A stretch of DNA of 64,000 bases from the NCBI RefSeq assembly GCF_000482505.1, contig NZ_KI519443.1:62001-126000 (forward strand). The letters run 5' to 3'. Numbering within the stretch: position 1 is the stretch's first letter; the number at the start of each line of letters is the position of its first letter. A program made the translations under genes and the position numbers. The notes under the pieces are model-generated. The model was not told the origin of the DNA, made no database searches, and saw nothing but the letters and a program-made list of their open reading frames with translations. This document shows, one piece after another, positions 21,901 to 42,881 of the stretch. This stretch comes from Leptotrichia trevisanii DSM 22070. GTDB taxonomy: Bacteria > Fusobacteriota > Fusobacteriia > Fusobacteriales > Leptotrichiaceae.

Positions 21901-22757
21901 ATAACAACTGAGTTATTAAATCTTGGACTGACTTGAGCATTTTGTCCAGCTGCAACATACGAATTACCAACTTTATTGTATCTGGTAGTTGTATACCCAG
22001 TTTCTCCTCCAGTAGTCCTATTCCCCACAATAGGCCTTTGAGAAAATCCTTTTCCTTTAAAGACAAGACTTGGTGGAGTAAAGAATGTTGGTGGTGTAGG
22101 ATTTGGTGATCCCGGTTTTGATGGAGTGCTTACCATTCTTGGTTCAAATGGCGGTAATGCTCCACTCGGTGCTTGAGGTACAAAATTAGTTTCTGTCTTA
22201 TTTACTGATTTTGGCCGTATACCTGCACTTATGCTTACTGTTACAGGATATTCAGGTATAATATTCAAATTTGTCAAATTATATGAATTATCTTTCTTAT
22301 TATCTGTCAAATATCTTGAAATCCTATTAGCAGATAAAGTATTTTGTCTAAGATAAACCTCATCCTCATAAACTTTATTGCCTTTCCCTTTATACGTCCC
22401 ATGCCAATCATTATAATAATAATTTATCCCATATTGCCAACTGCTCCAAGGTGATTTTACAACGTGATCCCCCTGCTCCATTAGCTGAATCAATTCCAGG
22501 TTTGAATTTCTAAGCAGCTTATTATTTTCAGTCCTCACTCTTTTGAAATTTTGATGTATATCCTTAATTGATGTTGAAATTACCTGTCTTTGGCTCTCTA
22601 TACTGGAATCTTTCGTTACAGGAAACAGATTTTTTACTGAAATAATCATTCCCGTTAACAAAAATGTAATTAACAAATTATTAGTATAATGCACATTTTT
22701 ACATCTTTTCGCAAATGTACGCAAGTCTTTTCCCAATTGTCTAAGATTATTAGTCAT
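15966..22757 (-). CDS. Giant autotransporter adhesin (type V secretion), paralog 2
   Basis: A 2263-residue paralog. ATG 22757 follows AAGGAG. The N-terminus has the same basic region, hydrophobic core (about 27-45), coiled coil and SPWSSWQYGINY motif as paralog 1. The Pro-rich linker is followed by a passenger rich in GTI, NNG and GIYS/GMSG repeats typical of a beta-helix. The C-terminal barrel, from about residue 1930, is very similar to the other two up to the final GFRAIY. The passenger differs strongly from paralogs 1 and 3, including a long unique section at about 240-560, so ligand specificity should differ. It has its own terminator and a long upstream region, so it is likely expressed on its own. 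Confidence 0.92.
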   Translation of the reverse strand: MTNNLRQLGKDLRTFAKRCKNVHYTNNLLITFLLTGMIISVKNLFPVTKDSSIESQRQVISTSIKDIHQNFKRVRTENNKLLRNSNLELIQLMEQGDHVVKSPWSSWQYGINYYYNDWHGTYKGKGNKVYEDEVYLRQNTLSANRISRYLTDNKKDNSYNLTNLNIIPEYPVTVSISAGIRPKSVNKTETNFVPQAPSGALPPFEPRMVSTPSKPGSPNPTPPTFFTPPSLVFKGKGFSQRPIVGNRTTGGETGYTTTRYNKVGNSYVAAGQNAQVSPRFNNSVVMQNYDEYNTTGGTLDITMGSTTTWSGANVEGKTTLPTNDASDQRNYSINDDVEIGTTDVAGGATVTKTIPHDPFIIYYTSPGATLTHTLKPGNVQEGWIFDTEYSGSGSSKSYTPKWDTVNAFISDSRDHDTTIKGNYKVTDNGTGEETKIFFSYNPSGVGGKPYNPNQNQWGWSDGTGQDVERKAVFNGNLELNGIASTNNTNVLVGLEHQLWAKDPLSSDAADQAEWNKSNSNTTLENKGEITLKSGNNLVGIMIDVEHSNDKNKKRHKTINSGKINVNSNNSIGIDFGSYSFGYLQTDVSLGTINVNGKNNYGFRMSTPQIKDGGGNIMTQGSYNNGAVIKNTDYYDWGMSVDGGNGKITVGGEENVGVSISQSLGITNPKTNTAYADTNPIHNITNLDIEVKGNKTVGFLRNKNYSSNNTNDIVLNDTTVRDLNFGDGAKGSTLVRSDKYGILLNKTINSTKGSTGNSFVQSSNGGYVTNQGTLSSSLDKFTGMVSSGSDGTTKSKVSNTGTITLTSNSDDLVGLAALNNADVANTGTLKVLGTGKNKAGIYNNGTGTATIGNNSNIEITGESSSAVYNNTGTVNISGTNSITANNGSVGIFSSGGTVTSTSGNNLNITVNDTVKKGLGVYAENGANVNLSGAKINVQNGAAGVTAEGTGTSLNLQGSTLTYNGDGYAIYANNGGNIDLSNNATINLYGKATGFEKNTSTVNLTGSTIHIYSNDVTVVNVKDGGTLNTTGLQANVGVMSGAGALSINSSHGFTGYKLAAIDGLTAYNVYNIDKSIAADDTQQNNDSYVFTKNLLVQRAVTNLKAGNNVKAVLSGADMTKIGLSSVVGLDMSSSKNATSNNEAQINLEANTTVTADRSDSGSGGVGLYINYGKVNTAASAIVNVEKEANTVNNNAVGIYSVNGSEVNNAGTVNVGGNNSIGILGMGFRENTSGAVVGAEFGTGAAGQGKSVVLNSGKLNLDGEAATGIYMKNNSGATLSDITATNTGTITMSGNGAVGMSGAGATLKNNNIINITGQKAVGIFGNANSALSNTGTINVGASATTDPVNIGMFTNDTGTSLTNDGTLNIGKNSYGVYGKNVTTGANSKINVGDNGVGIFSNGNSVTVNGELNINPNEAVGVFTSGNGAMNVANNASKVAIGDGSYGFVLRSGGTSERIQANGGTTGLAPTTFTSNTSNVTLGNQAVYVYSADTLGTITNKTAITTTGSNNYGLYAAGNVVNEASANMNLTSGAGNVGIYSIENGNAKNYATIDVGTSDRENKFYSIGMAAGYYNEDTRRLEQTGNIENHGTINVNNEYGIGMYAVGSGSKAINYGTINLDGKGTTGMYLDQNAVGINYGTIQTSANPSKTGIIGVAALNNSVIKNYGRIIVAGTGNIGVYTAGNGTYSQETSSNPAQGGVLTTGSITASNGATDKKNDEQVPTDKKIAGINIIAPAGAKIAKIERNGVPASIDSVDTVKPVPQPQYVTVNSTSLIDLSKLNNGITNVNLSRASSLGMYVDTSGVNYTKPIEGLQHLNLSNVNLIFGSEISKYTQNKDIEVGDNILKPFNDVLAPLAQNGLTMSYISGALNWIATATYKTDGTLAKVYMSKIPYTAYAKSGDRNNYNFLDGLEQRYGVEGLNSREKTLFNKLNEIGKGESRIFVQAVDEMKGYQYSNTQQRITSTGNALDTEFSYLKNEWRNPSKQNNKIKVFGMKDEYNTDTAGIINYTNNAYGVAYVHEDEKIKMGNSSGWYAGVVTNKFKFKDIGHSKENQSMIKAGIFKTMSPKADHNGALQWTIGGDVFAGINSMTRKYLVLDEIFQAKSDYHSYGAAFKTDLGYDIRLSERTHLRPYGALKMEYGRFNDIKEDRGEMRLEVNGNDYFSVKPEVGMEFKYVQPLAVRTNLTVGLKAAYENEIGKLQEKNQARVRYTTAGWYDLANEKENRSGNGKFDLNIGIDNTRFGVTVNGGYDTKGNNVRGGIGFRAIY

Positions 22758-23443: not shown

Positions 23444-26400
23444 CTAGTAAATAGCTCTAAATCCAATACCTGCCCTTACATTCTTACCTTTGGTATCATA
23501 TCCTCCATTTACTGTTACTCCAAATCTTGTGTTGTCAACTCCAATGTTCAAGTCAAACTTACCGTTTCCTTTTCTGTCATCCTTTTCCCCTCTGATTCCG
23601 AACCAGTCAGCTGTCGTGTATCTTACTCTTCCTCTGTTGTTCACATCTCCAACTTTTCCTAACTCATTCTCATAGGCAGCTGTAAGTCCCACTGTCAAGT
23701 TTGTTCTTACTGCTAACGGTTGCACATATTTGAATTCCATTCCAACTTCTGGCTTAACTGAGAAGTAGTCGTTCCCTTTTACTTCCAGTCTCATTTCCCC
23801 TCTGTCTTCCTTGATGTCGTTAAATCTTCCATATTCCATCTTCAAGGCTCCATATGGACGGAAATGTGTTCTCTCACTCAATCTTACATCATATCCTAAA
23901 TCAGTTTTCAAAGCAGCACCATAAGAATGATAATCAGATTTAGCCTGGAATACGTCATCCACAACCAAATATCTACGTTTCATGTCATTAATACCTACAA
24001 ATACATCTCCACCAATTGTCCATTGCAATGCCCCGTTATAATCCTTCTTCGGCGACATTGTCTTGAACACTCCTGCTTTAAGTATTGTCTGATTTTCTTT
24101 TGATTTTCCGATGTCCTTGAACTTGAATCTGTTTGTTACGGCTCCTGCATACCATCCGCTTGAGTTACCCATCTTGATTTTTTCATCCTCATGAACGTAA
24201 GCCACACCGTAGGCATTGCTTGTGTAGTTAATAATTCCTGCAGTATCAGTGTTGTATTCATCTCTCATACCGAACACTTTAATCTTGTTGTTTTGTTTAG
24301 ATGGATTTCTCCAGTCGTGTTTTAAGTATCTGAACTCTTTGTCCAGCAAGTTTCCAGTTGCGTTGATTCTTTGTTGAAGATTTCCATATTGATGTCCCAT
24401 CATTTCATCGAATGCCTGATACAGCAATACTTCCTCGTTGTTTCCTATTCCATTTAGTTTTTGGAATAATAAACGTTCTCTAGTTCCTAAAGCCTTGACT
24501 CCGTATCTTTGTTCAAGCCCATCCGTAAAGTGGTATGTGTCTGCACTGTTTACTGGTGTACTTTCTCGCCCTGCCCAAGCTGTATACGGTATTTTAGCCA
24601 TATATAGACTGTTTATCGAACCATTTGAACGATCTAATGTTGGTGTAGCCATCCATGTTAATGAACCTGAGTAAATATTCCATTTTATATTATTATTTTG
24701 CAACATAGCTTGTTTATATGGATTTATTATATTAGGATCATTTACCAAAATATATTTGCTATTTGTCACTTCTGTAGCTTCTGTACCAACAATTAAATCC
24801 GCCTTGTTTGTTAATTTATTCAATCCATCTATTGATTTTGTAATATTTACCCCTGAAGTATTTATATATAACCCAATACTCGAAGCTGACACTGTTATTG
24901 GATTTTTACCTGTTGTATTTACTACTGTTGGTGTTTGAGGTACTCCATTTACAGTAATTGTGGCACTTGTTGCTCCTGCAGGTGCATCAATTGACACTCC
25001 ACCAACTTCTTTACCTGTTGGAGGTGTTGTAAATTCTGCTTCTCTTTTCGCTCCTCCAGCCACTGTTATAGTTCCATAATTTGCTACTATTCCACCTTTT
25101 AGATAAATACCTGTTCCATTATCTGAATCAATATGAATTGTACCAGTATTATTAAGTGTTGCACCTTTACCTAGATACACTCCAACTACTTTTGAATGTG
25201 AACCCGAAGTTGTAATTGTACCTCTATTAATTGCAGTAGCTCCATTATCAGCATAAATACCTGTGGTATTGTCTGCATTTAATGTTATAGTCGATCCTGC
25301 ATCATTTATAGCCTGACTTCCTGAGCCACTTGCATACATCCCTATACTGTCTTTACCATTTACAGTAATTGTACCTTTATTTATTATAGTTCCACGATCT
25401 GTTGTACCGTACCCTGCACCCATACCGATTGAAAATAAATTATTTTTTGAATCTGATTCCCCTACAATTATCGAAGAATTATTTGTTGCAGTTCCTCCAC
25501 CAACACTATATATTCCAACATTTCCTTTACCATTTGACAAATTAATGGTTGCATTATTATTTACAGTTCCAGCTGAATAAAGTCCGTAGTTTTGGTTTCC
25601 AGTTGAAGAGATAGCAGTATTATTTGTTACTGTTCCTTTAGTGTCGTTTGAATAAACATATACACTGTTGTTTCCAAGTCCTATATTTGAAATAGTTGAA
25701 GTTATTGTATTTCCACTACCTACATTCACAAATCCAAATGAGTTATCACCCAAATTAAATGTCGTTCCATTGTTTGTAATATTTTGTCCACTTCCAACAG
25801 TATAAACTCCCACTGCCTCATTAGAACCCGTTGTAATTGTTCCTCCAGTTAAGTTTACATTTCCACCTTGAGAATAAATTCCAATTCCACCATTTCCAAC
25901 AGTAACATTACCTGAGTTATTTGATGTATAACCATATAATCCAATTGAGTTTTTACCTACAGTAACAGTTCCTCCATTTGTTAATGTATGATTTGCATTG
26001 TCAGTATAAATTGCAACATTAGGATTTGATAATGAAGCAGAATCTCCCATTGTAATTGTTCCTGCATTTAACACATTATATGTAGCAGCTGCACCTTCTG
26101 TAGCATACAACCCTACATTTTTATCTCCTGTCATTGTAATCGTACCTGTATTTTTTAACATATCTGTTCCAGCTGCTGAAATTGCTTTAGGTTTATACGA
26201 TACTCCAATAGAATTATTACCTGAACTTGTAATTGTTCCATCATTTGTAATTGCCTGATCAGTATCTTCCGAGTATAGTCCTGTTGAGTTTGAGCCTATT
26301 GTAACTGCACCTTTATTAGTAACTATTGAATCGTCTTTCCCATATATTGCAGTTGAAGAATCTCCCATTGTGATTTTTCCTGTAGTATCATTATTCAATA

Positions 26401-29194
26401 TTCCATATTTAGCATACATACCGGTTGACTTTGCTCCTGACAAATTAACTGTACCATAGTTATTTATTGTAACATCAGCTCTATTTGTATGTGCTTTGTT
26501 TTCCTGTGCAAGTGCTACCAATCCAGTTTTAGTTCCTGTTATTGTTTGACTGTTATTATTATCTATAGAAGAATTTGCAATTTCAAGCTGATTAAGTGCA
26601 TCATTATCATCATCAAGATTTACATTTTGATTTATAGTAAGTTTACTTTTGTACAACATAAACGTTTTATAACCTGCACCTTGTATATTTGCTCCTGTAG
26701 CTTTTGAAACAGAATCTCCTGTTGTATCAGATAAATTCATTCCTACATCTGAAGCTACAAATAACCTTGAACCTTTATTCATATTCAATGTTAAATTCTT
26801 TAAACTTCCATTAAAGATATTATTTGCCCAAGTAGTTATATCTCCTGAATTAAATGAAGCATAATGTGAAGGGGCAGTATAGTAAAATGCAGTTCCTCTA
26901 CTATTAACATCACTACCTCCTGCAACATCAGCAGTCAATTTACCAGCTATATTGAATTTTCCGCCATCTGAATAAAATAACAATGAACCTTGTCCAGTTT
27001 TAGCAGTTGAATTTTTACCTGCCGCAAATGTAGTAGTTGATGAAGTATTTTTTCCTTCAAAAAAGTTTACGGATCCATCATTAGCAACAACATTTGTTTT
27101 TCCTAATGTTAAATTACCATTTGAAAAAGTTCCTATAGATTTATTACCCGTTACAGTTATATCAATTTCTCCATTTGTACTATCTAAAGTTCCACTTTCC
27201 ATTGGAGTCGCATTTCCAACTATAACTCCAACTGAACCGTTTCCAGCACTGTTAAGGGTTATCTTACCTTTATTTGTAAATGAACCCGTTCCTTTAGTTA
27301 CAACTCCTTGTGAAACATCAGAAGAAGTGACATTAATTTCTGCACCACTTTCATTTTTCCCTTTTCCAGTACCATAAACAACCATACCAACATTTTTCCC
27401 AGCTGTTACATTTACTTTACCTGTATTTATAACCGTTCCATTACTTGTATAAAGTCCTATATTTGTATTACCTGTACTTGAAATGTTTATATTACCTGTA
27501 TTTGTCATACTACTGTTTGCATCATTATCAATATTATTATTTCTAAGTCCAATCGAATTATTTTTTGAACCTGTTATATTTATATCTCCTGCATTTGTAA
27601 CATTTTGATGTAATTCCGAATACATCCCAAAAGAATTTTCTCCACTTACATTTATGGTTCCACCACCGGAATTTTCAACTGTCAAGGCACGACTAGGATC
27701 AGCTTGTTTTTGTACCGCTATTCCTCCTGAATTATCTCCACTGATGTTCATTATTCCACCTGATGCATTTTGAAATACTGAACCTGCTGCTACATTATTA
27801 TTTGCAGTTCCTCCACCAGGCAGTGTAGCTTTCGTACTTAGCCCTATACCGTAGCTAGTATTACCAGCCATAGTAACATTACCTTTATTTATAGCTTTTA
27901 CAACCCATCCTGGACTTTTTACATAAAAACCAAATCCCGTTGAAGTGTTTCCTGTTAAATTGATGGTTCCACCTGTTTCATTTATTGCTGTATATATTCC
28001 TGTAGGATTTTGTTCCTGAGTAAATGTAAAAGCTGATTGTCTATCAAACTCCCCTTTTATTGTACCTTTATTTATACCTGTTACATTTACACCATTTTCT
28101 TGTGTTGTTAGTTCCATTCCTGCTGTATTTGTAGCATTTAAATTAATTTTCCCCTCATTAGTAAATTTACTTTCTCCTGAACTACTTTCTATGGGATCAA
28201 AAGATAATGCTCTTTCACCTGAAGCATTTACATTAAATGTAACACCTGTCCCTATACCATAATTACCTGCTTTAGTTATCTCTAATATTGCATGTGCTTT
28301 ATAATTAGGATTATCACCATTTGCTCCACAATAAGGGGTTGGATGAGTTTTACACCATGCCTCATCATTAGCTCCTGTTAAATTGTATACTCCATCAGAA
28401 ACAGTAGTTAAATTTCTGGCCAACACTGTTTGTTCTTGAGCATTCCAAAAAGCGTTTAATGCCACTGCTGTTATATTTACAGGAACAGTATTTATCGTTG
28501 GTACATTTGGTGCTACTGGGCTAAAATTAACCGGTGTTGGTGTTTGCGGTGTTGTTGCTTGTTTTGCTGGAATAGTTATCGCACCTTTTTGTACTTGCCT
28601 TGGCGTTATTCCCGCATTTACTTCAAATCCTACGATTGGTTCTTTTACTGGCTTTGTACTCGCTATTCCATAATTACCTGATAAACCTGTAGCTGATTTT
28701 GGATTTCTTGTTTTTGAAAACAATGAGTATTTATCACTATCTGGAGATATAGTTCTTTCATAAACATTTAAACTTCTTTGAAATATTCCTTCATAAGGAT
28801 ATTTCGCCTTTTTATCCCCTTTACCTTTATAAGTTCCGTTCCAGTTATTATTGAAGTAATTTATACCATATTGCCAGCTGCTCCAAGGTGATTTTACAAC
28901 ATGATCTCCTTGTTCCATTAATTGAATAAGTTCAAGATTTGTGTTTTTTAGTAATTTGTCATTTTCACGTCTTGTTTCCTTAACTTTTTGATGCATACCT
29001 TTTATTGAAGATGAAATTTCCTGTTTCTGATTTTCTATGCTTTTATCTGTAGTTGCAGAAAATAAATTGCTTGTGATTGATACCATTCCTGTCATTAAAA
29101 ACGTGATTAATGCAGAATCTGTATACTTAAAATCTTTTGTTCTCTTTGCAAATGCTCTTAAATCCTGTGAAACTTGTCTAAGATTATTCGTCAT
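23444..29194 (-). CDS. Giant autotransporter adhesin (type V secretion), paralog 3
   Basis: A 1916-residue paralog. I start at ATG 29194 (MTNNLRQ, as in paralog 2) because the in-frame GTG at 29206 is fused to the AGGAG site. It has the same hydrophobic signal core (about 27-46), coiled coil, SPWSSWQYGINY motif and Pro-rich linker (about 205-235), then the shortest of the three beta-helix passengers. Its C-terminal ~330-residue barrel is close to those of paralogs 1 and 2. A Cys pair (C281 and C289, CKTHPTPYC) lies at the passenger start, which is unusual because most autotransporter passengers avoid cysteine. It is the most upstream of the three tandem genes. Confidence 0.92.
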   Translation of the reverse strand: MTNNLRQVSQDLRAFAKRTKDFKYTDSALITFLMTGMVSITSNLFSATTDKSIENQKQEISSSIKGMHQKVKETRRENDKLLKNTNLELIQLMEQGDHVVKSPWSSWQYGINYFNNNWNGTYKGKGDKKAKYPYEGIFQRSLNVYERTISPDSDKYSLFSKTRNPKSATGLSGNYGIASTKPVKEPIVGFEVNAGITPRQVQKGAITIPAKQATTPQTPTPVNFSPVAPNVPTINTVPVNITAVALNAFWNAQEQTVLARNLTTVSDGVYNLTGANDEAWCKTHPTPYCGANGDNPNYKAHAILEITKAGNYGIGTGVTFNVNASGERALSFDPIESSSGESKFTNEGKINLNATNTAGMELTTQENGVNVTGINKGTIKGEFDRQSAFTFTQEQNPTGIYTAINETGGTINLTGNTSTGFGFYVKSPGWVVKAINKGNVTMAGNTSYGIGLSTKATLPGGGTANNNVAAGSVFQNASGGIMNISGDNSGGIAVQKQADPSRALTVENSGGGTINVSGENSFGMYSELHQNVTNAGDINITGSKNNSIGLRNNNIDNDANSSMTNTGNINISSTGNTNIGLYTSNGTVINTGKVNVTAGKNVGMVVYGTGKGKNESGAEINVTSSDVSQGVVTKGTGSFTNKGKITLNSAGNGSVGVIVGNATPMESGTLDSTNGEIDITVTGNKSIGTFSNGNLTLGKTNVVANDGSVNFFEGKNTSSTTTFAAGKNSTAKTGQGSLLFYSDGGKFNIAGKLTADVAGGSDVNSRGTAFYYTAPSHYASFNSGDITTWANNIFNGSLKNLTLNMNKGSRLFVASDVGMNLSDTTGDSVSKATGANIQGAGYKTFMLYKSKLTINQNVNLDDDNDALNQLEIANSSIDNNNSQTITGTKTGLVALAQENKAHTNRADVTINNYGTVNLSGAKSTGMYAKYGILNNDTTGKITMGDSSTAIYGKDDSIVTNKGAVTIGSNSTGLYSEDTDQAITNDGTITSSGNNSIGVSYKPKAISAAGTDMLKNTGTITMTGDKNVGLYATEGAAATYNVLNAGTITMGDSASLSNPNVAIYTDNANHTLTNGGTVTVGKNSIGLYGYTSNNSGNVTVGNGGIGIYSQGGNVNLTGGTITTGSNEAVGVYTVGSGQNITNNGTTFNLGDNSFGFVNVGSGNTITSTISNIGLGNNSVYVYSNDTKGTVTNNTAISSTGNQNYGLYSAGTVNNNATINLSNGKGNVGIYSVGGGTATNNSSIIVGESDSKNNLFSIGMGAGYGTTDRGTIINKGTITVNGKDSIGMYASGSGSQAINDAGSTITLNADNTTGIYADNGATAINRGTITTSGSHSKVVGVYLGKGATLNNTGTIHIDSDNGTGIYLKGGIVANYGTITVAGGAKREAEFTTPPTGKEVGGVSIDAPAGATSATITVNGVPQTPTVVNTTGKNPITVSASSIGLYINTSGVNITKSIDGLNKLTNKADLIVGTEATEVTNSKYILVNDPNIINPYKQAMLQNNNIKWNIYSGSLTWMATPTLDRSNGSINSLYMAKIPYTAWAGRESTPVNSADTYHFTDGLEQRYGVKALGTRERLLFQKLNGIGNNEEVLLYQAFDEMMGHQYGNLQQRINATGNLLDKEFRYLKHDWRNPSKQNNKIKVFGMRDEYNTDTAGIINYTSNAYGVAYVHEDEKIKMGNSSGWYAGAVTNRFKFKDIGKSKENQTILKAGVFKTMSPKKDYNGALQWTIGGDVFVGINDMKRRYLVVDDVFQAKSDYHSYGAALKTDLGYDVRLSERTHFRPYGALKMEYGRFNDIKEDRGEMRLEVKGNDYFSVKPEVGMEFKYVQPLAVRTNLTVGLTAAYENELGKVGDVNNRGRVRYTTADWFGIRGEKDDRKGNGKFDLNIGVDNTRFGVTVNGGYDTKGKNVRAGIGFRAIY

Positions 29195-29870
29195 TTTGAT
29201 TCTCACTCCTTCTCAACTAAATTTTTTCATATTTAACAAATTAAAATTCTAATTATGATTAGTGATTTCATTTTAAGATTAGATAGTTTTTTATTAAATA
29301 TCCATATTATTACGTTTTTTCAAACTTTTATCAAAACAATTTCTCAACTCTCTTATTAAAAATCACATAAAATCAAACTTACAAATCGAATAACTTTTAA
29401 AATTCAGCATTAAATTAATAAAGCACTTCAAATTTTTATGTTTAACTTTATAGTAATTTTTTACAAGCAGTCTAACTATAATGCAGTTTATTACAATTCA
29501 AATTTATTTAAATAACAAATTTATACTTAGTTCATTGCAAATAAAAGTTTTAAAAAACTTATTATTCTTTATTTTATCAAATTTAATAAAAAAATACAAT
29601 ATCTTTTTCAAAAAAACCTGTTTTTTTTAATATTTTTTTATAAAAATAGCTATATTTTTTTACTAAAATAAAATATTTCTTTAAATTTAAACCAAATTTC
29701 ATTAAAAAAAGCATACACCTTTTTTCTTGACAATCCCCCAAAAACTTGGTACAGTCTATTTATGATAAAATTATTTTGAACCAGAATCCAAATTATTTAA
29801 TTTTTATTCCGATTCCAAAGTAATTTACGCATATTAAACGTTAAAAATTTTAAAAGGGGGAGCAGCTGAC
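29195..29870. other. Divergent intergenic between autotransporter 3 and RhuM gene
   Basis: About 675 bp, extremely AT-rich, holding the start regions of two divergent genes. AAAATCACATAAA-like sequence near 29360 also occurs upstream of paralog 1, near 13246. A TTGACA (29727-29732) fits a plus-strand -35, but no clear -10 follows at standard spacing. No gene is visible. Confidence 0.45.
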
Positions 29871-30875
29871 ATGAATAACGAAATAATTATTTATAATACA
29901 GAAGACGGAAAGGCCCAGATAAGTTTACGCCTGGAAAACGGCATGGTTTGGCTAAGCCAGTCTGAAATAGCCGAACTCTTTGACACAACTAAACAAAATA
30001 TAAGCAAACATATAAAAGCTATTTTTGAAGACAGAGAATTAAACAGGGAAGTGGTTGTAAACTATCAGTTGACTACCACTCAACACGGAGCAATTAAAGG
30101 TAAAACTCAGACAAAAAAAGTTGCCTACTATAACCTTGATATGATATTAGCCATAGGTTATCGTGTACGTTCACCTAGAGGAATGCAGTTCAGGAATTAT
30201 GCAACAACAATTTTAAAAGAGTATCTTGTCAAAGGATTTGCTATAGATGACGAAAAACTTAAAAATTTAGGCGGTGGAAATTATTTCAAAGAACTGTTAG
30301 ACAGAATCCGAGATATTCGTTCAAGTGAAAAAGTTTTTTATCGCCAAATTTTAGATTTATTTTCCACAAGTATTGACTACAATCCTAAAAGTGAAGAAGC
30401 GAAACATTTTTTCGCTACTGTTCAAAATAAAATGCACTTTGCCATACACAGCCACACAGCAAGTGAATTAATTTATAATCGTGTTGATAGTGAAAAATCA
30501 TTTATGGGGCTTTCGACATTTAAAGGGGAGCTCCCTACTCTTAATGAAGCCAAGATCGCTAAAAATTATTTGACAGAAAAAGAACTTAAAGGGTTGAATC
30601 AATTAGTTTCGGGATATTTAGACTTTGCAGAAAGACAGGCAGAAAAAGAAATATCAATGACAATGCAGGACTGGGTAAATCATGTAGATAAAATCCTTAC
30701 AGCTTCTGGAGAAAATTTGCTTTCAGGAAATGGAGAAGTTTCACACACTCAAATGATAAAAAAAGTAGAAAATGAATATAAGAAATATCAATCAAAAACT
30801 TTAAGTAAAGTTGAAAAAGATTATCTCAAAGAAATTAAAAATATTGAAACAAAAATAAATAAAATCAAAATTTAA
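29871..30875 (+). CDS. RhuM-family protein
   Basis: 334 residues, matching the RhuM (virulence protein RhuM/Fic-associated) family along its whole length. It opens with IIIYNTEDGKAQISLRLENG, then a WLSQSEIAELFDTTKQNISKH segment that looks like a DNA-binding or KilA-N-like helix-turn-helix, then YYNLDMILAIGYRVRSPRG, which is highly characteristic. The C-terminal half carries LIYNRVDSEKSFMGLSTFKG. The biochemical role is not established; members occur in pathogenicity and defence islands and near restriction genes. A GGGGGAG ribosome site precedes the ATG. The next gene starts 15 bp after its stop, so the two may be cotranscribed. No other phage or island genes lie next to it. Confidence 0.85.
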   Translation: MNNEIIIYNTEDGKAQISLRLENGMVWLSQSEIAELFDTTKQNISKHIKAIFEDRELNREVVVNYQLTTTQHGAIKGKTQTKKVAYYNLDMILAIGYRVRSPRGMQFRNYATTILKEYLVKGFAIDDEKLKNLGGGNYFKELLDRIRDIRSSEKVFYRQILDLFSTSIDYNPKSEEAKHFFATVQNKMHFAIHSHTASELIYNRVDSEKSFMGLSTFKGELPTLNEAKIAKNYLTEKELKGLNQLVSGYLDFAERQAEKEISMTMQDWVNHVDKILTASGENLLSGNGEVSHTQMIKKVENEYKKYQSKTLSKVEKDYLKEIKNIETKINKIKI

Positions 30876-36182: not shown

Positions 36183-37124
36183 TTAATTTTTATGCCAATC
36201 ATTTGGAAAATCCATTCTCGATAAAATATCATTTATATTTACAATATTTTCTAATTTATCTTCCAAAGTTTTGATAATTAATTTTAATTTTTCTGTTAGT
36301 GCATCAAATTCTTCTTTAGAAAGACTAACTATAAAAAGTCAAGCATAAATCGTAAAGAGCTTTTGATTTCTGTTTGATGTCATATCACTAACTCTTTTTA
36401 TATTAACAGTTTCTCTCGAAGAAAATTCGTATAACCTTTCGTTATGGGCAGCAACATTTCTAAAATGAGAGCTAGCAACTAAATAAGTTCTTACAAATGA
36501 ATGAGTTATATTTGGAAGATTGCCATATTCTTCTTTATACAAATTTTTAAAATGATCGCAAATTTTATCATATACATTTTTATGTAAACAAGAATATAGT
36601 TTGCTAATATCTCCAAAAGTTAAATAGTGAATTATAATCCAAAAAGGAATATTATCTTTTGTAGTGTTATAATGTCTTATTATCATTTTTTCATTATCTT
36701 TTTTTATCTTTTTCAACGTATTCACCACCATTGAAATTTTAAGAATATTTGAATTTTTCTTTCCAGTATTGTAATTCTCTAAAAGAAGATACGAATTTTT
36801 TTTCAAAATTCCGTTTGTTTCAGAAAAATAATATGAAATAGCTGTTTTGAAAAAACTTTCAAGCAATGTCAAATTATCAAAAAATAAAATTCTCAATTCC
36901 CTATCAAAATCATGAAGACTTTTTAAATATTTAAATTTAAAATTTTCAATGTATTTATCTTTTCCTCTCAAATTTTTATTTTTTTCTAAAAAAGGAGCTT
37001 TATAAAAATTTATAATAGAATAGTAATTAAATCTTTTCAAAATAGAAATTGTATCTTTATCAATGCTCATTCTGCTTGATATAATTATTTCCTGTTCTTT
37101 GAACCTTTTAAATGGCTGATCCAC
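36183..37124 (-). pseudogene. Abi_2 (AbiD/AbiF-type) HEPN protein interrupted by one in-frame TGA
   Basis: The open frame codes 261 residues from GTG 37124 (AAGGAG six bases upstream) to TGA at 36341-36339. In the same frame it continues for 51 more codons to TAA at 36185-36183, ending SRMDFPNDWHKN, the expected Abi_2 C-terminus. The restored length, 313, is normal. Abi_2 proteins act in abortive infection. RNVAAHNERLY near residue 218 holds an R-x4-H HEPN RNase motif, and NYYSIINFYKAPF near 33 is typical of the family start. The TGA sits after the HEPN motif, so a shortened active protein is conceivable; decay, readthrough or sequencing error are alternatives. A structured RNA precedes it. 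Confidence 0.8.
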
Positions 37125-37149: not shown

Positions 37150-37248
37150 AAAAGCCCTCTAAACAGAGAGCCTTAATATTAATTTAAATTATAATTTCAG
37201 CCTATATCGACTTCTATTTAAGAAATCATTGATATAGTACGATCCACA
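37150..37248 (-). ncRNA. Structured leader RNA between promoter and Abi_2 gene
   Basis: About 100 nt from the promoter at 37282-37254 to a terminator-like hairpin. Main stem: CTATATC (plus 37202-37208) with GATATAG (37231-37237). Directly inside it, GACTTCT (37209-37215) pairs with AGAAATC (37221-37227) with one wobble, around a 5-base loop. The second hairpin, GCCCTCT (37154-37160) with AGAGAGC (37165-37171), has one G-U and is followed on the minus strand by TTTTCTGATATTTT. It ends 26 bases before the GTG start. The layout of promoter, RNA, attenuator and toxin is that of RNA-antitoxin systems; function is inferred. Confidence 0.55.
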
Positions 37249-37407: not shown

Positions 37408-39729
37408 CTAAATTGTTCTAACAATACGAAAGCTGGTACGATAGAACCAAACCCATTCTCCATCCCTCCATACTCTTTCAGAAATAAATTCATCTCTACC
37501 ACAATTAAATATATTACAATTCTTTGTATCACTACGAAAAGACCCTCCTTTTAATCTATGGTTTGATACACTTTCCTCATACCTGTATGGTGTTTTTTCA
37601 GGTATATATGCATCACTAGATATATCATAACACCACTCCCAAATATTTCCACTACAATCGCAAATCCCTAATTGATTTGGTTTCTTTGTTCCTACATCAT
37701 GAGTACGATTTTCTGAATTACCATCATTCCAAGAAACTTCATCTATATTATTACTGCCTGAATACTCATAATTAAATGTCCCATCTTGTATTGCAATTTC
37801 TCCACCTCTTGCAAACCATTCCCATTCAACTTCTGTTGGCAATCTAAATCCTTCAGTTTTTCTAAAATCTGCTACATTTGGGTATTCTATTTTGCCATTT
37901 GATTGATGTATTCTTAATATACCTTCTTCTTTTCGGCTCAAGTCATAAACTGGTTTTAATCCATGTTTCTCACTCAATTTATTACAAAATTCCAAAGCAT
38001 CCCACCAAGATACGTTTTCAACTGGACGTCTTCCACCTTTAAATTCTGATGGATTATTCTCCATTACTTCCATCCACATATCTTGTGTTGTCTGATATTT
38101 ACAAACTTCTAAATTGCAAACTTCTCTTTCTTCATTAAAGAATGATGGCGTGTATTTTCCTCCATTTACTATAACCATATCTTTGAATGTCGGTCTTCCA
38201 GCTATTCTTTTACCATTTTTTATTTTTTGAGAAGCTGATTTTATTTTGAATTTTTTATAGCTCTTTTTCAAAACATCTATTTTATCAGATAAAATATTCG
38301 ATAAAGAATCTATACTTTTAGTTGCTTCTAATAAATTATTTGTTGTGATTTTCTTTTCTTCTTTATTTTCAGTTTCTAATATAAATTTATTTTCAACTGC
38401 GTTTTTAACGATTTCTTCTATATCAGCACCACAGTAGCCTTCTGTTTCTTCTGCCAGTTCTTTCAAGTTTATGTCGTCTGACATTTTTCCTCTTTTTTCA
38501 AGGTGAATTTCAAATATTCTTTCTCTTTCTTCCTCGTTAGGAAAATCTATAAAAAATACTTCATCAAATCGTCCTTTTCTTAGAAATTCTGGCGGGAAGG
38601 CTGTTATATCGTTGGCTGTTGCTACTACGAATACTGTGTTTTCTTTTTCCTGTAACCAAGTTAAAAATTGTCCAAATAGACGTTTTGTTATGTCGCTTGC
38701 TCCACCGTTTTGATCTATTCCTGCAAAGGCTTTTTCTATTTCATCTATCCATAAAATGCACGGACTTATTGATTCGGCTGTTTTTAGTGCGATTCTCATA
38801 TTATGCTCCGATTCACCAACGTATTTTCCCAAAAGTCTTCCTATATCCAGTCTTAATAATGGAACATTAAACAATCTTGCACTTGCTTTTGCTGCCAAAC
38901 TTTTACCACAGCCCGGCATTCCTACAAGCAGTACTCCTTTTGGCGTATCCACTCCAAATTTCTTGGCTTCATCCAGTCTTCTAAATACTTGTGCCTTAGA
39001 GCTTAGCCATTCTTTCAACCCTTCAAGCCCACCAATTTCTTCTATTTTTTCCTTAAAATCAATAATTTCCAAAATTGAAGACTTTTTAATTATTTGCCCC
39101 TTTTCACGAATGATTATTTGATTAGCACCTTTTGAAATAGCTCCATAATTTTCTTCTAATATCATATTTAAAATATGATCCAAATCTAACTTGGTTAAAC
39201 CTTTTAAAGAAATTGACAAATCTCCCAAATCATCCCAATATATTCGAGCATTATTTTTTTGAGCAAAATCTTGAATATATTGATTAATTGTTGTTTCATC
39301 CATAGTTTCAATATCAATTATACTTGTAAATTTTTCTAATCCTTTTGGTACATTTACATCTTCATCAACAATTATTATATTAAAATTATAATTTATATCA
39401 TTATACATTTTTTCAGCTATTTTTTTAATAAAAGCAATATTTCGTGCCTCTTTCATTTCTTCTTCCGTATTTTTTATCAATAAAAATACATTTGTTTTAA
39501 AACCAACCGAAAAAAGAATATTTAAAAAGCTATACAAATCTGCAACTTCATCACTTTTAACCTTGGTTTCAAAATTTACAGCTCCAAAGGCCCTATATTC
39601 AAAAATCGCCTTATTTTTATATTCTTTAGTCGCTTCTGTTACAATTGTGTCAACTTCCTTGTAATCTCCACTGTGTACCCAAATTATAGGTCTTCTTGCC
39701 CTTAAATACTTTGATAAATTTGTTTCCAT
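37408..39729 (-). CDS. Ycf46-like AAA+ ATPase fused to an FGE-sulfatase (C-type lectin fold) domain
   Basis: 773 residues in three parts. 1-220: RARRPIIWVHSGDYKEVD recalls the N-domain of Ycf46-type ATPases. 225-475: an AAA+ module with Walker A GMPGCGKS (270-277), Walker B ILWIDE (325-330) and FLRKGRFDEVF (382-392) carrying the arginine finger. About 515-772: a formylglycine-generating-enzyme-like domain with NVSWWDALEFCNKLS, FRLPTEVEWEWFARGG (628-643), GNIWEWCYD, GGSF (728-731) and the final SFRIVR. The canonical FGE cysteine pair right after GGS is absent; a CNIFNC pair occurs seven residues later, so ligand binding by the C-type-lectin fold is more likely than catalysis. It is the last gene after the WYL and glycine-zipper genes, 147 bp downstream. 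I know no characterised protein with this architecture. Confidence 0.85.
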   Translation of the reverse strand: METNLSKYLRARRPIIWVHSGDYKEVDTIVTEATKEYKNKAIFEYRAFGAVNFETKVKSDEVADLYSFLNILFSVGFKTNVFLLIKNTEEEMKEARNIAFIKKIAEKMYNDINYNFNIIIVDEDVNVPKGLEKFTSIIDIETMDETTINQYIQDFAQKNNARIYWDDLGDLSISLKGLTKLDLDHILNMILEENYGAISKGANQIIIREKGQIIKKSSILEIIDFKEKIEEIGGLEGLKEWLSSKAQVFRRLDEAKKFGVDTPKGVLLVGMPGCGKSLAAKASARLFNVPLLRLDIGRLLGKYVGESEHNMRIALKTAESISPCILWIDEIEKAFAGIDQNGGASDITKRLFGQFLTWLQEKENTVFVVATANDITAFPPEFLRKGRFDEVFFIDFPNEEERERIFEIHLEKRGKMSDDINLKELAEETEGYCGADIEEIVKNAVENKFILETENKEEKKITTNNLLEATKSIDSLSNILSDKIDVLKKSYKKFKIKSASQKIKNGKRIAGRPTFKDMVIVNGGKYTPSFFNEEREVCNLEVCKYQTTQDMWMEVMENNPSEFKGGRRPVENVSWWDALEFCNKLSEKHGLKPVYDLSRKEEGILRIHQSNGKIEYPNVADFRKTEGFRLPTEVEWEWFARGGEIAIQDGTFNYEYSGSNNIDEVSWNDGNSENRTHDVGTKKPNQLGICDCSGNIWEWCYDISSDAYIPEKTPYRYEESVSNHRLKGGSFRSDTKNCNIFNCGRDEFISERVWRDGEWVWFYRTSFRIVRTI

Positions 39730-39876
39730 TTTTCCTCCTGATTTTTTATTTATTTCATTTCTTTATAAATATGCTCGAACTCATCTAAAATTAAACTGAT
39801 AAAAATTAAATAAACCTAACATTACAAAGTATAATTAGAATTTTTTAACTTCAATTTTAAAATGATATTATTATTT

Positions 39877-41625
39877 TTACCATCCAAATAGTCCTCCAAT
39901 AAAACTTCCCACTGCTCCAACTGCTGAACTTAAGGCACTTCCTACCGCTTTTACACCTGAGGCTACTGCTGTTCCTACTGCTTTCACTCCTTCCCATGCT
40001 CCTTTTGCAACGCTTTTTACTGCCTCTGTCCCTTTTTTTACTATTTCAGTTGATCCATCAATTACAGGTTTTGCAATAGTTCCCACTCCTTTGGCTATCG
40101 CTCCGCCAACTTTACTTCCAACTATTCCACATACTGCTCCTGCCGCAAGTGCTACCGCTCCACCAACAACTGCTCCAGCAACTCCCAACGCTCCCAGCCC
40201 AATTGCTCCAGCCATTGCCAATCCACCTATAAAACCAGCATTTGATGCAACTATCGCTCCATAAGCAGAACCTACTGATGTTCCTACCCTTTTTGTAGCT
40301 TCTCCTAGACTTATTTCACCTGAACCTAATTTAAACGCCGTTCCTATAATATCCATTGAAGATGCCGCAACTGCTCCAACTGCATTATTATTTGCTAAAA
40401 CTCCAGCAAAAACTTTCGGCACAACATTCTTTTCAACTGCAACCCTTATTCCCCCAGCAACTGCTGTTGAAAGTCCCATTGAAGTCCCAGTCTTCACTCC
40501 AGCCTCAATTACTTCAGCAACTTCCACTTCTTCTCCAGAAACAAGTTTTGTTCCAACATCTAAAGCCATTCCAATACCAACTCCCATAGTTCCATTGATT
40601 ACAGCCTGTTTTCCTATCTGTTTACTTATTGCAAGAGCGTCTACATCTTTTTCAAAACTGAATTTCACTGCTTCTTTGTCGCCAGACTGGTATTTTTCCT
40701 GAATATTTTTTATTTCTTCCTTGCTTATATTTTTACTTTCCACTTCTCCAAATTTCAGCTTATCTACTGAATTTGGGATATCTCCAGCCTGATCTGACGG
40801 AACTAATTTTGACTGAAATTTATATTTGTAGCCTTGCTGTCTGTCGTAAAATGATTTTGCAGTTTCATTGGCATTTTTATAGGCTTTTGCCTGATATTTT
40901 CTTACAATCCTGCCAGAATCTTCTATTGTCATATCAATCGAATTTTTTCCATAAGTTTCGCCTATTTCTGGCTTTAGTGCCTTTGCATAGTAGTTTTTTT
41001 CTTTAACTGCCGCATCTATATTGAATGTTCCAGCGTGACGTTCTTCAAATATAAATCCATCTAAATTAGGGTTTTGACTTATTTCTCCAGTTTTAGTTGT
41101 AAGTGCTGACAAAATTTCCTCATTTGACTTGCCTATAGTTAAATTTACATTATCAACATAAACATTTGCTTTAGCTGCACTTAATGTGTTTGCCACTACT
41201 TGTGGATTATTTATTGCAGCCGCTTCATATATCATTGCCTCATTGTAATTTGCTAAAATTTCACTACTTTCTTTCATATCTCTAATAATTTGCTGTCTAT
41301 CCACAACTTCCGCATTTATTACATCTTCCGAAATTTTATCCAGTATCACATCTCCCACATAATCACTGCTATTTATCCCAACTTTTTGATATTTTTCCAC
41401 TTCCTTTTTCTTATCAAAATAAATTTCAACTCCTTTCATAAGTTCATCAGCTATTTTTTCTATTTCCTCTGGCTTCTTTACCACTAGTTCATTTTGTAAT
41501 TCATAAATTAACCAGCTTCTCAAATCTTTTTTATTTTCACTATTCTTATTTTGAGCATAACTTTTTAAAAATTTTTTGATAATTTCCTCAGTTTTTCTTC
41601 TTCTGCTCCCTCTTAATCTAAACAT
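39877..41625 (-). CDS. Possible PD-(D/E)XK-like domain plus glycine-zipper membrane protein
   Basis: 582 residues. ATG 41625 has AGGAGG six bases upstream; an ATG at 41646 does not. 1-185 is charged and helical. About 186-265 has FIFEERHAGTFNIDAA, then NSIDMTIED, then KYQAKAY. The ID-x13-QAK spacing (D231, Q245, K247, with E194/E195 before) resembles PD-(D/E)XK nucleases of the Mrr type. About 328-582 is a long Gly/Ala/Val region full of GxxxG and GG repeats (GGAVALAAGAVCGIVG, GGAIAKGVGTIAK) ending FIGGLFGW, like glycine-zipper membrane-inserting proteins. It overlaps the WYL gene by 8 bp. Nuclease activity is inferred from spacing only; a substrate-binding or structural domain is possible. 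A membrane-acting effector is my working guess. Confidence 0.6.
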   Translation of the reverse strand: MFRLRGSRRRKTEEIIKKFLKSYAQNKNSENKKDLRSWLIYELQNELVVKKPEEIEKIADELMKGVEIYFDKKKEVEKYQKVGINSSDYVGDVILDKISEDVINAEVVDRQQIIRDMKESSEILANYNEAMIYEAAAINNPQVVANTLSAAKANVYVDNVNLTIGKSNEEILSALTTKTGEISQNPNLDGFIFEERHAGTFNIDAAVKEKNYYAKALKPEIGETYGKNSIDMTIEDSGRIVRKYQAKAYKNANETAKSFYDRQQGYKYKFQSKLVPSDQAGDIPNSVDKLKFGEVESKNISKEEIKNIQEKYQSGDKEAVKFSFEKDVDALAISKQIGKQAVINGTMGVGIGMALDVGTKLVSGEEVEVAEVIEAGVKTGTSMGLSTAVAGGIRVAVEKNVVPKVFAGVLANNNAVGAVAASSMDIIGTAFKLGSGEISLGEATKRVGTSVGSAYGAIVASNAGFIGGLAMAGAIGLGALGVAGAVVGGAVALAAGAVCGIVGSKVGGAIAKGVGTIAKPVIDGSTEIVKKGTEAVKSVAKGAWEGVKAVGTAVASGVKAVGSALSSAVGAVGSFIGGLFGW

Positions 41626-42466
41626 TTTTTTCCTCCTCAGTTTCATATATTTCTATTGTCCTTTTAAGTTCACTTTTTAATCTTTTTCTCAATTCAATTG
41701 GTTCTAAAATTTTTACATTTGAAAAAAATTGTGCAAAATATACCAATGCAAGTTTGTTATCACATTCAAAGATATAAATCCCATCCTTCTTATTTAAAAG
41801 TCTAGGCCTGTTTGTCAAAACTTTTTCATAAAGTTCCACTCCTTTTTCTGTAAATTCAACTTTAACTGTGTTTTTATACGATAGAAATGGATCAAAATTT
41901 TTATATACATTATCAATATATTCTTTATCTTTTATTTCAATATTTTCATTTGTAAACCATACTTCTTCTATTTCTGAAATTCTGTAATTCCTATAATCAT
42001 TATTCTTTTCACAGTAGCAGAACAGGTAAGATCTGTTTTCATCATCTGCCACTTTTACAAAATACGGATTTACTAGCCTTATATATTTGTGATATTTTAT
42101 TTTTATCTTTCTTTTTCCCTGCATTCCTTCCTTAATTTTCCTAAAAATCTTTTCAAATAATATTTCTTCACGTCTATATCGTAAATTATTAATATATGTA
42201 AAAATTATATTTCTCCAATATTCGGCTTCAGTTTCAACTCTACTTCTAACAAAAGTATCCATAAAAATTTCATCATTATTTTTATTCAAGTTAAACTGTA
42301 ACACTTTCCCCGAAAAATTTTCCAATTCCACTTTATTCAAATTTTTGTCCATATAATATTTAAAAATTATGTTTCCTATCCTTCCCACAGGCATCTTAAA
42401 ATACTCCGAATCACTTTTTATAATCTCATTCATAAAATCCGAAATTGTAACTCTAACCTTCTTCAT
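41618..42466 (-). CDS. WYL-domain transcriptional regulator of the AAA-FGE operon
   Basis: 282 residues. ATG 42466 has GGAG seven bases upstream. The N-terminal ~90 residues (MKKVRVTISDFMNEIIKSD and following) are helical and probably bind DNA. The middle holds a WYL-type beta domain: IKIKYHKYIRLVNPYFVKVADDENRSYLFCYCEKNNDYRNYRIS carries the pattern of basic residue, Pro, Y-L and R-x-Y-R-I. A WCX-like C-terminal part ends ELKRTIEIYE. WYL proteins sense nucleotides or nucleic acids and often control defence loci. It is the first gene of the operon, and its end overlaps the next start by 8 bp, so it is coexpressed with its targets. Confidence 0.78.
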   Translation of the reverse strand: MKKVRVTISDFMNEIIKSDSEYFKMPVGRIGNIIFKYYMDKNLNKVELENFSGKVLQFNLNKNNDEIFMDTFVRSRVETEAEYWRNIIFTYINNLRYRREEILFEKIFRKIKEGMQGKRKIKIKYHKYIRLVNPYFVKVADDENRSYLFCYCEKNNDYRNYRISEIEEVWFTNENIEIKDKEYIDNVYKNFDPFLSYKNTVKVEFTEKGVELYEKVLTNRPRLLNKKDGIYIFECDNKLALVYFAQFFSNVKILEPIELRKRLKSELKRTIEIYETEEEKNV

Positions 42467-42881
42467 AGCCAATCTCCTAAAACAATACTTTTTTTAACTT
42501 CTAAGCTTAATTTTAAGTTATTTTGCTTAAATTTAATACTAGTTTATTTTTTTCTACACAAATTATATCTAATTTCAAAGTAAAACTCAAGGAAATGTTT
42601 AATCCTAATTTTTGTTCCCCCTAAAAAATAAAAAACCTTAAAAAATCTAGCTAAAAACAAGAAATTTTAATTATTTCTGTTCCTTAAAATAGAATTTAAT
42701 CTTTTATATTATATAATAAAAACATTTTTGATAATACTGCTCCTACATTAATTTTGAAAAAAATTGAGGGTTACTTTTAATAAAAAAACTTTTCTATATA
42801 AAAATTTTTAAAATTAATCTTAATGAGGTATAATATATAAAAGATTCATAATCTTTAATCTTTAGCAAAGGAAAATAACTT
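42467..42881. other. Divergent intergenic between WYL regulator and lipid cluster
   Basis: About 415 bp of AT-rich DNA between genes on opposite strands. The plus-strand promoter at its right end is listed separately. I see no clear minus-strand promoter and no gene. Confidence 0.4.
42829..42856 (+). promoter_or_regulatory. Candidate promoter with start-site palindrome
   Basis: TATAAT at 42829-42834 is followed by the perfect palindrome AAAGATT-CAT-AATCTTT at 42840-42856, which would cover the transcription start. No good -35 is present, so an activator or repressor at the palindrome is plausible. It precedes the seven-gene cluster. Confidence 0.45.

Follow-up and report, generated by a model that had tools for sequence, protein, structure and literature searches.

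What is the function of an operon that joins a WYL-domain regulator, a protein without a named family and an AAA+ ATPase fused to an FGE domain? This three-gene operon lies in a window of 64,000 nucleotides from Leptotrichia trevisanii DSM 22070 (assembly GCF_000482505.1, contig NZ_KI519443.1, positions 62,001 to 126,000 of the forward strand), and an annotation made without database searches, here the sequence-only reading, had taken it for a candidate conflict system. Based on comparative analysis and structure prediction, we propose a stand-alone, WYL-regulated conflict module, most likely directed against phages, in which an AAA+ ring controls the middle protein (here MID) as effector and the tip of the FGE domain senses a foreign ligand; we put the probability of this reading at about one in two. 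The locus is real and ordered, apparently mobile and probably a defence module; it is related to a known accessory of the CoCoNuT systems and seems new as a stand-alone kind with a putative hypervariable FGE sensor. The three open reading frames (ORFs) are all on the minus strand:

41618..42466, minus strand: WYL-domain regulator, first gene of the operon (Pfam PF13280, E 3.9e-9)
39877..41625, minus strand: MID, with a helical N-terminal part, a PD-(D/E)xK-like core and a glycine-rich tail
37408..39729, minus strand: AAA+ ATPase fused to an FGE domain of C-type-lectin fold (Pfam, Shine-Dalgarno-like site)

The coordinates, shared strand and 8-bp overlap given by the sequence-only reading were confirmed to the base. 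The mechanical ORF of MID opens at 41646, from which MID residue numbers are counted here; an AGGAGG lies just 5′ of ATG 41625, and this start yields an overlap with the WYL gene of exactly 8 bp (41618-41625), the WYL stop being at 41618. AGGAG precedes the WYL ATG at 42466 (mechanical ORF opening at TTG 42472), and AGGAGG precedes the ATG of the AAA+-FGE gene, which is separated from the end of MID by 147 bp. The assignments of a WYL regulator (PF13280) and of an AAA+ protein fused to FGE were likewise upheld by Pfam (AAA PF00004, E 2.8e-29; FGE-sulfatase PF03781, E 3.6e-29).

The operon had been read as a module, and its genes do co-occur in other genomes. A search for relatives found MID in seven of 149 genomes, the window's own included, comprising five of 13 Leptotrichia genomes (G000, which is the window's genome, G002, G004, G008 and G010) together with G057 and G062; a search of the phylum with an alignment returned 15 of 98 genomes, the same seven as strong and another eight as partial matches. 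The order WYL-MID-AAA-FGE is also present in four of the 12 other Leptotrichia genomes, and MID-AAA pairs occur in other phyla at roughly 30% and 40-50% identity, respectively, which argues that the arrangement is not due to chance. A scan of GTDB species with peptide patterns around LDG and YGKNS(I/V)D gave 32 loci with a MID relative (L043 and L044 apparently being the same genomes as G008 and G057), which we take from their titles to belong to Bacillota, Pseudomonadota, Campylobacterota, Spirochaetota, Synergistota, Bacteroidota, Fusobacteriota and delta-proteobacterial groups. In the DNA fetched, a homologous AAA+ gene is found at 29 of these loci, nearly always adjacent to MID or one gene away; of the three loci without it, L058 and L073 end at a contig edge and L055 lacks it across 21 kb. 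MID relatives were further found in 15 plasmid records, all enterobacterial, and in one record of a phage collection (MT839117), and none was confirmed among 58 stretches of IMG/VR viral contigs. At its start, the MT839117 ORF has about 90 residues from a protein of Cas12f/TnpB type, and these account for the Cas12f rows in the scan of the MID family.

Among 30 candidates for the third gene, nine cluster with the window WYL protein, 16 form a family that we call protein X and five belong to neither, so that WYL or X is the third gene in 25. The recurring unit is thus WYL or X with AAA+ and MID. The three-part set originally described is narrower than this unit: WYL is replaced by X in many loci, and FGE is fused to four of 33 aligned AAA+ proteins, all from Fusobacteria, in an alignment where one further fusobacterial protein ends at a contig edge and the FGE-bearing copies of G002, G004 and G010 were not included.

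The pairing of AAA+ with a glycine-zipper protein is itself not new and is partly in print for CoCoNuT; the remark of the sequence-only reading that it knew no named defence system with this set does not stand as worded. Section 10 of PMC11090510, on the Type III-A extension, presents an ATPase of SpoVK/CDC48 type in which a single half is active and to which leucine-rich repeats and a biotin-carrier-like barrel are fused; its operon partner is a glycine-zipper protein that is called bacteriocin-like and has a PD-(D/E)xK fold judged inactivated. The same section ties the ATPase to a transfer-messenger RNA (tmRNA) scenario. In Phytobacter, Pseudoalteromonas and Geobacter we found MID in operons of the order VWA-MID-AAA-CARF-hypothetical-PP2C-kinase-helicase. 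The order is the same on a Klebsiella plasmid whose gene table, which is incomplete, lists no PP2C; on another plasmid, insertion sequences follow the AAA+ gene, and an Achromatium locus shows a CoCoNuT-type layout without the CARF gene. By their genes from VWA to helicase, these operons have the layout of the second Type III-A CoCoNuT extension. Plasmid pMyNCGM088 (L011) carries mcr-10.1 within a few kilobases of its MID-bearing CoCoNuT-type operon.

The window locus resembles CoCoNuT Type III-A in its adjacent, homologous AAA+ and MID genes and in the combination of a predicted restriction-endonuclease-type fold with a glycine zipper. However, it has no McrB/McrC, VWA, PP2C, kinase, CARF or helicase gene beside it, it includes a WYL gene, and FGE replaces the repeat-plus-lipoyl-like tail on the ATPase. 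The plasmid VWA, CARF, PP2C, kinase and helicase proteins gave no BLAST match in the Leptotrichia copy L043. The tail of CoCoNuT-type AAA+ proteins measures 211-217 residues and, in the single protein that was scanned, gave a lipoyl-like match; many other AAA+ proteins are almost tailless. In the open-access literature, neither the stand-alone form nor protein X nor the WYL and FGE versions were found. What the CoCoNuT survey mentions as an accessory is here a free-standing module of many phyla, which two or three genes would suffice to clone and test.

The proposed effector can be divided into a core and a tail, which follow the helical N-terminal part:

40627..41175, minus strand: MID core, residues 158-340, with E201, D238, Q252-x-K254, Y275 and Q278 (predicted fold, alignment)
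39880..40626, minus strand: glycine/alanine-rich helical tail of MID, residues 341-589 (20% Gly, hydrophobic segments)

At E<=0.001, searches of Pfam, NCBIfam, PADLOC and PHROGs returned nothing for MID, and no PADLOC 2.0.0 model matches the window protein at E<=1. Folded alone, the core is predicted with a local distance difference test score (pLDDT) of 91.4 and a template modelling score (pTM) of 0.89, as a helix bearing E201 followed by strands, with D238 at the start of one strand and QxK at the end of the next. Most invariant columns of the family alignments fall in the core. E201, D238, Q252, K254, Y275 and Q278 do not vary among the 37 members, which include those from CoCoNuT-type operons; since the GTDB scan patterns cover L195-G197 and N235-D238, invariance there is partly selected, and E201, Q252, K254, Y275 and Q278 lie outside them. 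An Asp followed by QxK is carried by MspJI/Mrr-type endonuclease families and is used by active enzymes such as MspJI; unlike these, MID has a zipper tail. With VIA-align, 47 of 50 rows for the core were restriction-endonuclease-fold chains as judged from their titles (Z 2.4-4.6), among them PaqCI (4.6), Can2 (4.2), AgeI (4.0), Hjc (3.8), R2 endonuclease (3.7) and MspJI (2.8), and the remaining rows were an RNA polymerase and two SuhB entries; the 50 rows were drawn from Foldseek's own best 246 and are in this sense a second look at Foldseek's picks. Rows on the core part of the whole-MID model included DrdV, AgeI, 3dnx and EndoMS (Z 3.3-4.0). Foldseek on whole MID gave transporters at best (E 0.62), and MID showed no sequence match to solved nucleases at E<=1. 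The predicted topology and the motif fit the PD-(D/E)xK superfamily, and the fold matches, each weak, together agree with the published fold call; the nuclease-like core surmised in the sequence-only reading is supported. We differ from the published label 'inactivated' because D-QxK is retained in all members examined, CoCoNuT-type ones included.

Other similarities of MID were set aside. The best match of its profile in the PDB is a tape-measure protein (E 0.002, in the tail region), followed by other tail or coiled-coil matches, and the LeoB rows obtained for nine of 37 MID proteins (best E 3.5e-5) were taken as glycine-rich similarity. PDC-M09B rows were obtained for two of the 37 (L066, E 2.6e-4).

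The tail, which the sequence-only reading had taken for a glycine zipper, is glycine-rich (12-20% across the 36 members with a tail); in the window it contains hydrophobic segments at tail positions 136-154 and 159-177, and its structural model is of low confidence. The GxxxG motif itself exceeds shuffled sequences (p<0.05) in 30 of 36 tails. None of the four fusobacterial tails is among these 30, and that holds for the window copy too (12 against a shuffled mean of 9.6, p 0.23). Two proteins of Microcystis and Exiguobacterium plasmids match the N-terminal part and tail of the MID profile with no core, and stand beside X and AAA+:

L088:3454-4578: mini-MID protein (MID profile match)
L089:3899-4924: mini-MID protein of Exiguobacterium (MID profile match)

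The L089 set, with X and AAA+, directly follows an mcrBC pair. These mini-MIDs suggest that the nuclease is a removable part. Distant MID-like fusobacterial proteins (L120:6800-8323, L122:7563-9170, L123:6801-8657) match mainly the tail part of the profile, without the D-QxK stretch, and there was no AAA match in the DNA fetched around them.

The putative motor and sensor are encoded by one gene, whose product comprises the following parts:

39100..39507, minus strand: N-terminal segment, residues 75-210, with two allele types in the genus (allele comparison)
38230..39069, minus strand: active-type AAA domain, residues 221-500, CDC48/p97-like (closest solved chains CDC48/p97)
37411..38187, minus strand: FGE/C-type-lectin-fold domain, residues 515-773 (PF03781)
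37435..37584, minus strand: hypervariable stretch, residues about 716-765, followed by the invariant terminus FRIVRTI (five-species comparison)

Walker A and Walker B are conserved in all 33 aligned AAA+ proteins, and the RKGRFDE segment shows small changes. For the AAA domain, p97/CDC48 and FtsH-type proteins head both the solved chains and the NCBIfam rows; the window protein differs from them in its own N-terminal region, its C-terminal fusion and scores far below the curated cut-offs. The domain also matches IetA models (E 4.4e-28), but over residues 235-501 only, and whereas the partner in IetAS is a subtilase, there is none among the window operon genes. PADLOC assigned only IetA/TRIP13 models to the AAA+ protein, and the operon holds the components of no single PADLOC system. 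In the N-terminal segment, the window copy shows no amino acid differences from G004 and 57-58 from the other three Leptotrichia copies. The nearest solved chain to the FGE domain is TvpA (2y3c, E 2.6e-34), the variable protein of a diversity-generating retroelement of Treponema denticola. The active site of FGE enzymes contains a Cys pair; in a comparison confined to the Leptotrichia copies, the Cys residues in the window tip are not position-matched in G002, G008 and G004.

The variability of the FGE domain is concentrated at its C-terminal end. Across five Leptotrichia species, the ATPase domain is 98-99% and MID, by region, 87-99% identical to that of the window, and identity falls to 25-59% in the final two 25-residue blocks of the FGE domain, with the last seven residues invariant in the five copies. 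Of the 42-84 FGE differences per pair, counting gap columns, 22-42 fall in the 50 columns that precede the last eight, a concentration reached by 0 of 10000 shuffles in 10 of 10 pairs; as the segment was picked after seeing the data, these counts describe an effect rather than a planned test. In simple pairwise Nei-Gojobori estimates (10 pairs of five species), the ratio of nonsynonymous (dN) to synonymous (dS) divergence is 0.01-0.04 for the ATPase domain, 0.07-0.31 for the MID regions and 0.32-1.09 for the tip, there defined as residues 691-765. In the best aligned pair, the window and G010, the tip has a dN of 0.163 and a dS of 0.149 compared with 0.008 and 0.231 in the ATPase domain, i.e. 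a dN 20 times higher while dS is not raised.

This location is shared with proteins diversified by diversity-generating retroelements (DGRs). According to passages of PMC6328139, the variable region of TvpA comprises residues 285-329 at the extreme C-terminus, and DGR-diversified FGE/C-type-lectin sensors are proposed as antigen receptors of conflict systems in parts of PMC10907252 and PMC7159879; in some published conflict systems covered in sections of these three papers, FGE is fused to an NTPase. The window protein is like TvpA and DGR-diversified sensors in its FGE fold and in a hypervariable C-terminal segment between conserved flanks (compared with passages of PMC10907252, PMC7159879 and PMC6328139), and thus has this feature of DGR targets. 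Unlike in DGR systems, the ATPase is a CDC48-like AAA+ protein rather than STAND or MoxR-vWA. However, a DGR origin of the tip is disfavoured: reverse transcriptase (PF00078) has no match in three of the five carriers (G002, G004 and G010), the window segment, the sole query, matched nothing in G000 beyond its own gene (a 22-base match at E 0.007 came next), many differences are at third codon positions, and there are indels. It could still apply to G000 or G008, where PF00078 matches lie on other contigs or more than 1 Mb from the locus. Silent downstream cassettes were also rejected, since BLAST among the five downstream regions found no second tip copy and only 19-base inverted matches, and the ORFs in these regions encode Abi_2 or a PemK-like toxin; with only one FGE gene in G000, no donor of the tip was seen there. 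The C-type-lectin scaffold used by DGRs may be diversified without a DGR. That the hypervariability coincides in position with the variable region of TvpA lends circumstantial support to the sensor role assigned to FGE in the sequence-only reading, and the Leptotrichia copies may serve as a natural receptor series, differing in FGE mostly at the presumed binding tip, with which ligand recognition can be tested.

The locus has apparently passed between species, since the dS of the ATPase domain (0.12-0.27) is below that of nearby rsmA (0.54-1.14) in eight of 10 pairs. Besides the module, its slot upstream of infC holds Abi_2 in G000 and G010, a PemK-like toxin gene in G008 and G004 (the latter assigned by 93% identity to the former) and nothing more in G002. 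Two module-free Leptotrichia slots carry a DUF3644/EC042_2821 endonuclease gene (G009) and a Fic gene (G003), both matching PADLOC candidate models, and to this extent the suggested defence-gene neighbourhood is supported. A phosphoenolpyruvate (PEP)-synthase-like gene bounds the slot in six of these seven genomes (all but G008), a three-gene ABC-transporter-type set lies between in G002, G004 and G010 (Pfam run on the G010 copy), and the six remaining Leptotrichia genomes that were inspected show a different arrangement of this region. For 146 proteins that flank 23 of the loci (151 ORFs minus two above 1300 aa and three more, with four loci of CoCoNuT-like layout left out), a PADLOC scan matched 225 models, methyltransferase models among them, with at most three proteins per model among the 25 listed.

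From gene order, conservation, intact ATPase motifs, D-QxK in a confidently predicted fold and hypervariability, all directly seen, we infer ligand binding, remodelling, nuclease activity, membrane insertion and defence. WYL would set expression of the operon, and the p97/CDC48-like AAA+ ring would hold or deliver MID with its PD-(D/E)xK-type nuclease core and glycine-zipper tail. Binding of a foreign ligand by the hypervariable C-terminal face of FGE could trigger ATP-driven remodelling that frees or delivers MID, which would then cut nucleic acid, enter the membrane or both, so that phage growth stops, probably at the cost of the infected cell. We also entertain, tentatively and at well under even odds, a broader version: a widespread stand-alone anti-phage system of AAA+ and nuclease/zipper effector with exchangeable sensors (FGE, repeat-barrel tail or X), whose TvpA-like receptor in Leptotrichia is diversified without a retroelement, by selection and interspecies recombination. 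If true, a bacterial immune receptor repertoire would exist at population level.

Several points weigh against the proposed conflict module, alongside the partial selection of invariant positions and the derivation of the VIA-align rows already given. All fold matches of the core are below Z 5, each weak, and Foldseek on the core gave no significant match (E-values >1). The CoCoNuT homologue is viewed as an inactivated nuclease in the passages cited (PMC11090510); together with the tmRNA scenario of section 10 and the weak fold scores, this favours a MID that binds nucleic acid without cutting it, the CDC48-like ATPase acting on translation or RNA-bound complexes with MID as tether and membrane plug. 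We consider this unlikely, as none of the 37 members lacks any of the four motif residues, the D-QxK arrangement is the one at work in MspJI, and no CoCoNuT genes lie beside the window copy. The coreless mini-MIDs imply that cutting may not be the essential act, and with the GxxxG excess in 30 of 36 tails they speak for a membrane-active zipper as main effector, through depolarisation or pore formation, with the core as optional payload or regulator. This possibility overlaps with our proposal and deserves some credence, though we lean away from it because most of the invariant columns are in the core, coreless contexts number only two, the tail model is unreliable and the four fusobacterial tails do not exceed shuffles. 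That the tail is called bacteriocin-like in passages of PMC11090510 and that an AAA+ relative adjoins a baseplate V gene on a Treponema plasmid could point to an exported or injected antibacterial toxin, with the ATPase as loading chaperone; no secretion gene is among the recurring partners and the Treponema locus has no MID match, which makes this reading very improbable.

The proposed sensor and the mobility of the conflict module meet objections of their own. Tip dS exceeds ATPase dS in nine of 10 pairs, so that relaxed constraint or the import of segments might also account for the hypervariable end. A tip that drifts freely or is replaced by recombination, with specificity unchanged, would be compatible with the rest of our proposal and is also consistent with the indels and with differences at all three codon positions; we nevertheless regard it as rather doubtful given the conserved surrounding scaffold, the invariant last seven residues, the coincidence with the TvpA variable region and the unraised dS of the window-G010 pair with its far higher dN. 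As regards exchange, the rsmA comparison is a single gene, and two pairs show no clear excess of rsmA dS over ATPase dS (0.247 vs 0.227; 0.116 vs 0.204). The flank scan had no matched control, and we therefore claim no defence-island enrichment. Two of the five Leptotrichia copies have the WYL gene broken into a pair of overlapping ORFs (L033:8378-9231, L036:11566-12418), with MID and AAA-FGE remaining open in both. G055 retains AAA-FGE (67% identical), but only 43 residues immediately ahead of that gene match MID, at its C-terminal end, an arrangement that reads as MID loss. CDC48-like unfoldases serve quality control, which would suit a stress or proteostasis pair without a conflict role, but the patchy distribution, the exchange between species, the defence-type genes of the slot and the association with plasmids and CoCoNuT leave this scarcely credible.

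The regulatory third gene takes several forms. The window WYL protein contains the WYL domain itself, a WCX match under the family cut-off (PF25583, E 0.0016) and no DNA-binding Pfam family at E<=1; it matches the WYL and Cas3c models of PADLOC 2.0.0 and pairs with the third genes of L047 and L061. Pfam detects WYL in eight of the 30 third-gene candidates, among which only WYL, WCX and helix-turn-helix-type families match more than one member (Mga rarest, with two), leaving X without a named family; no NCBIfam family matches more than two of the 16 X proteins. Protein X, the third partner in 15 loci and on two plasmids, has a conserved N-terminal domain (IKFNL...LxRWL; e.g. L048:7477-8343 of Anoxybacillus and L089:4948-5988), and both WYL and X are present at the L066 locus. 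In Anaerobiospirillum (L054:2099-11440), two X-AAA-MID sets stand in tandem.

The operon is neighboured in the window by infC/rplT, Abi_2 and the PEP-synthase-like gene, with the following minor features:

42562..42590, minus strand: promoter-like site TTGAGT-17-TATAAT upstream of WYL (consensus match only)
37151..37174, minus strand: terminator-like hairpin between AAA-FGE and Abi_2 (sequence scan)
36339..37124, minus strand: Abi_2/AbiD gene, neighbour of the module (PF07751, E 3.5e-34)

Promoter-like sites are about as common as in shuffled sequence (43 vs a mean of 37.0), and the region has three terminator-like hairpins compared with 1.5 in shuffles. The hairpin at 37151..37174 suggests that Abi_2 is a separate unit. 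The adjacency of Abi_2 that the sequence-only reading remarked on is real in the window, but with Abi_2 in only two of the five Leptotrichia copies we regard it as a neighbour and not as part of the module. The window Abi_2 ORF is about 50 residues shorter at its C-terminus than its 99% identical relative in G010 (L033:13655-14632) and may be broken.

Relatives of the AAA+ protein were also seen near the end of the Streptococcus satellite phage Javan368 (L091) and on the Treponema plasmid mentioned above, beside its baseplate V gene (L090), with no MID match in the DNA fetched for either. On the metagenomic contig L012:1-1596, the first 90 or so residues of the MID ORF are those of a Cas12f/TnpB-type protein; this may mark a transposon junction. 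Elsewhere in the window, there are three very large minus-strand ORFs at 5885-13144, 15966-22757 and 23444-29206 (2419, 2263 and 1920 aa) and a RhuM-family gene at 29871-30875 (PF13310, E 1.6e-102).

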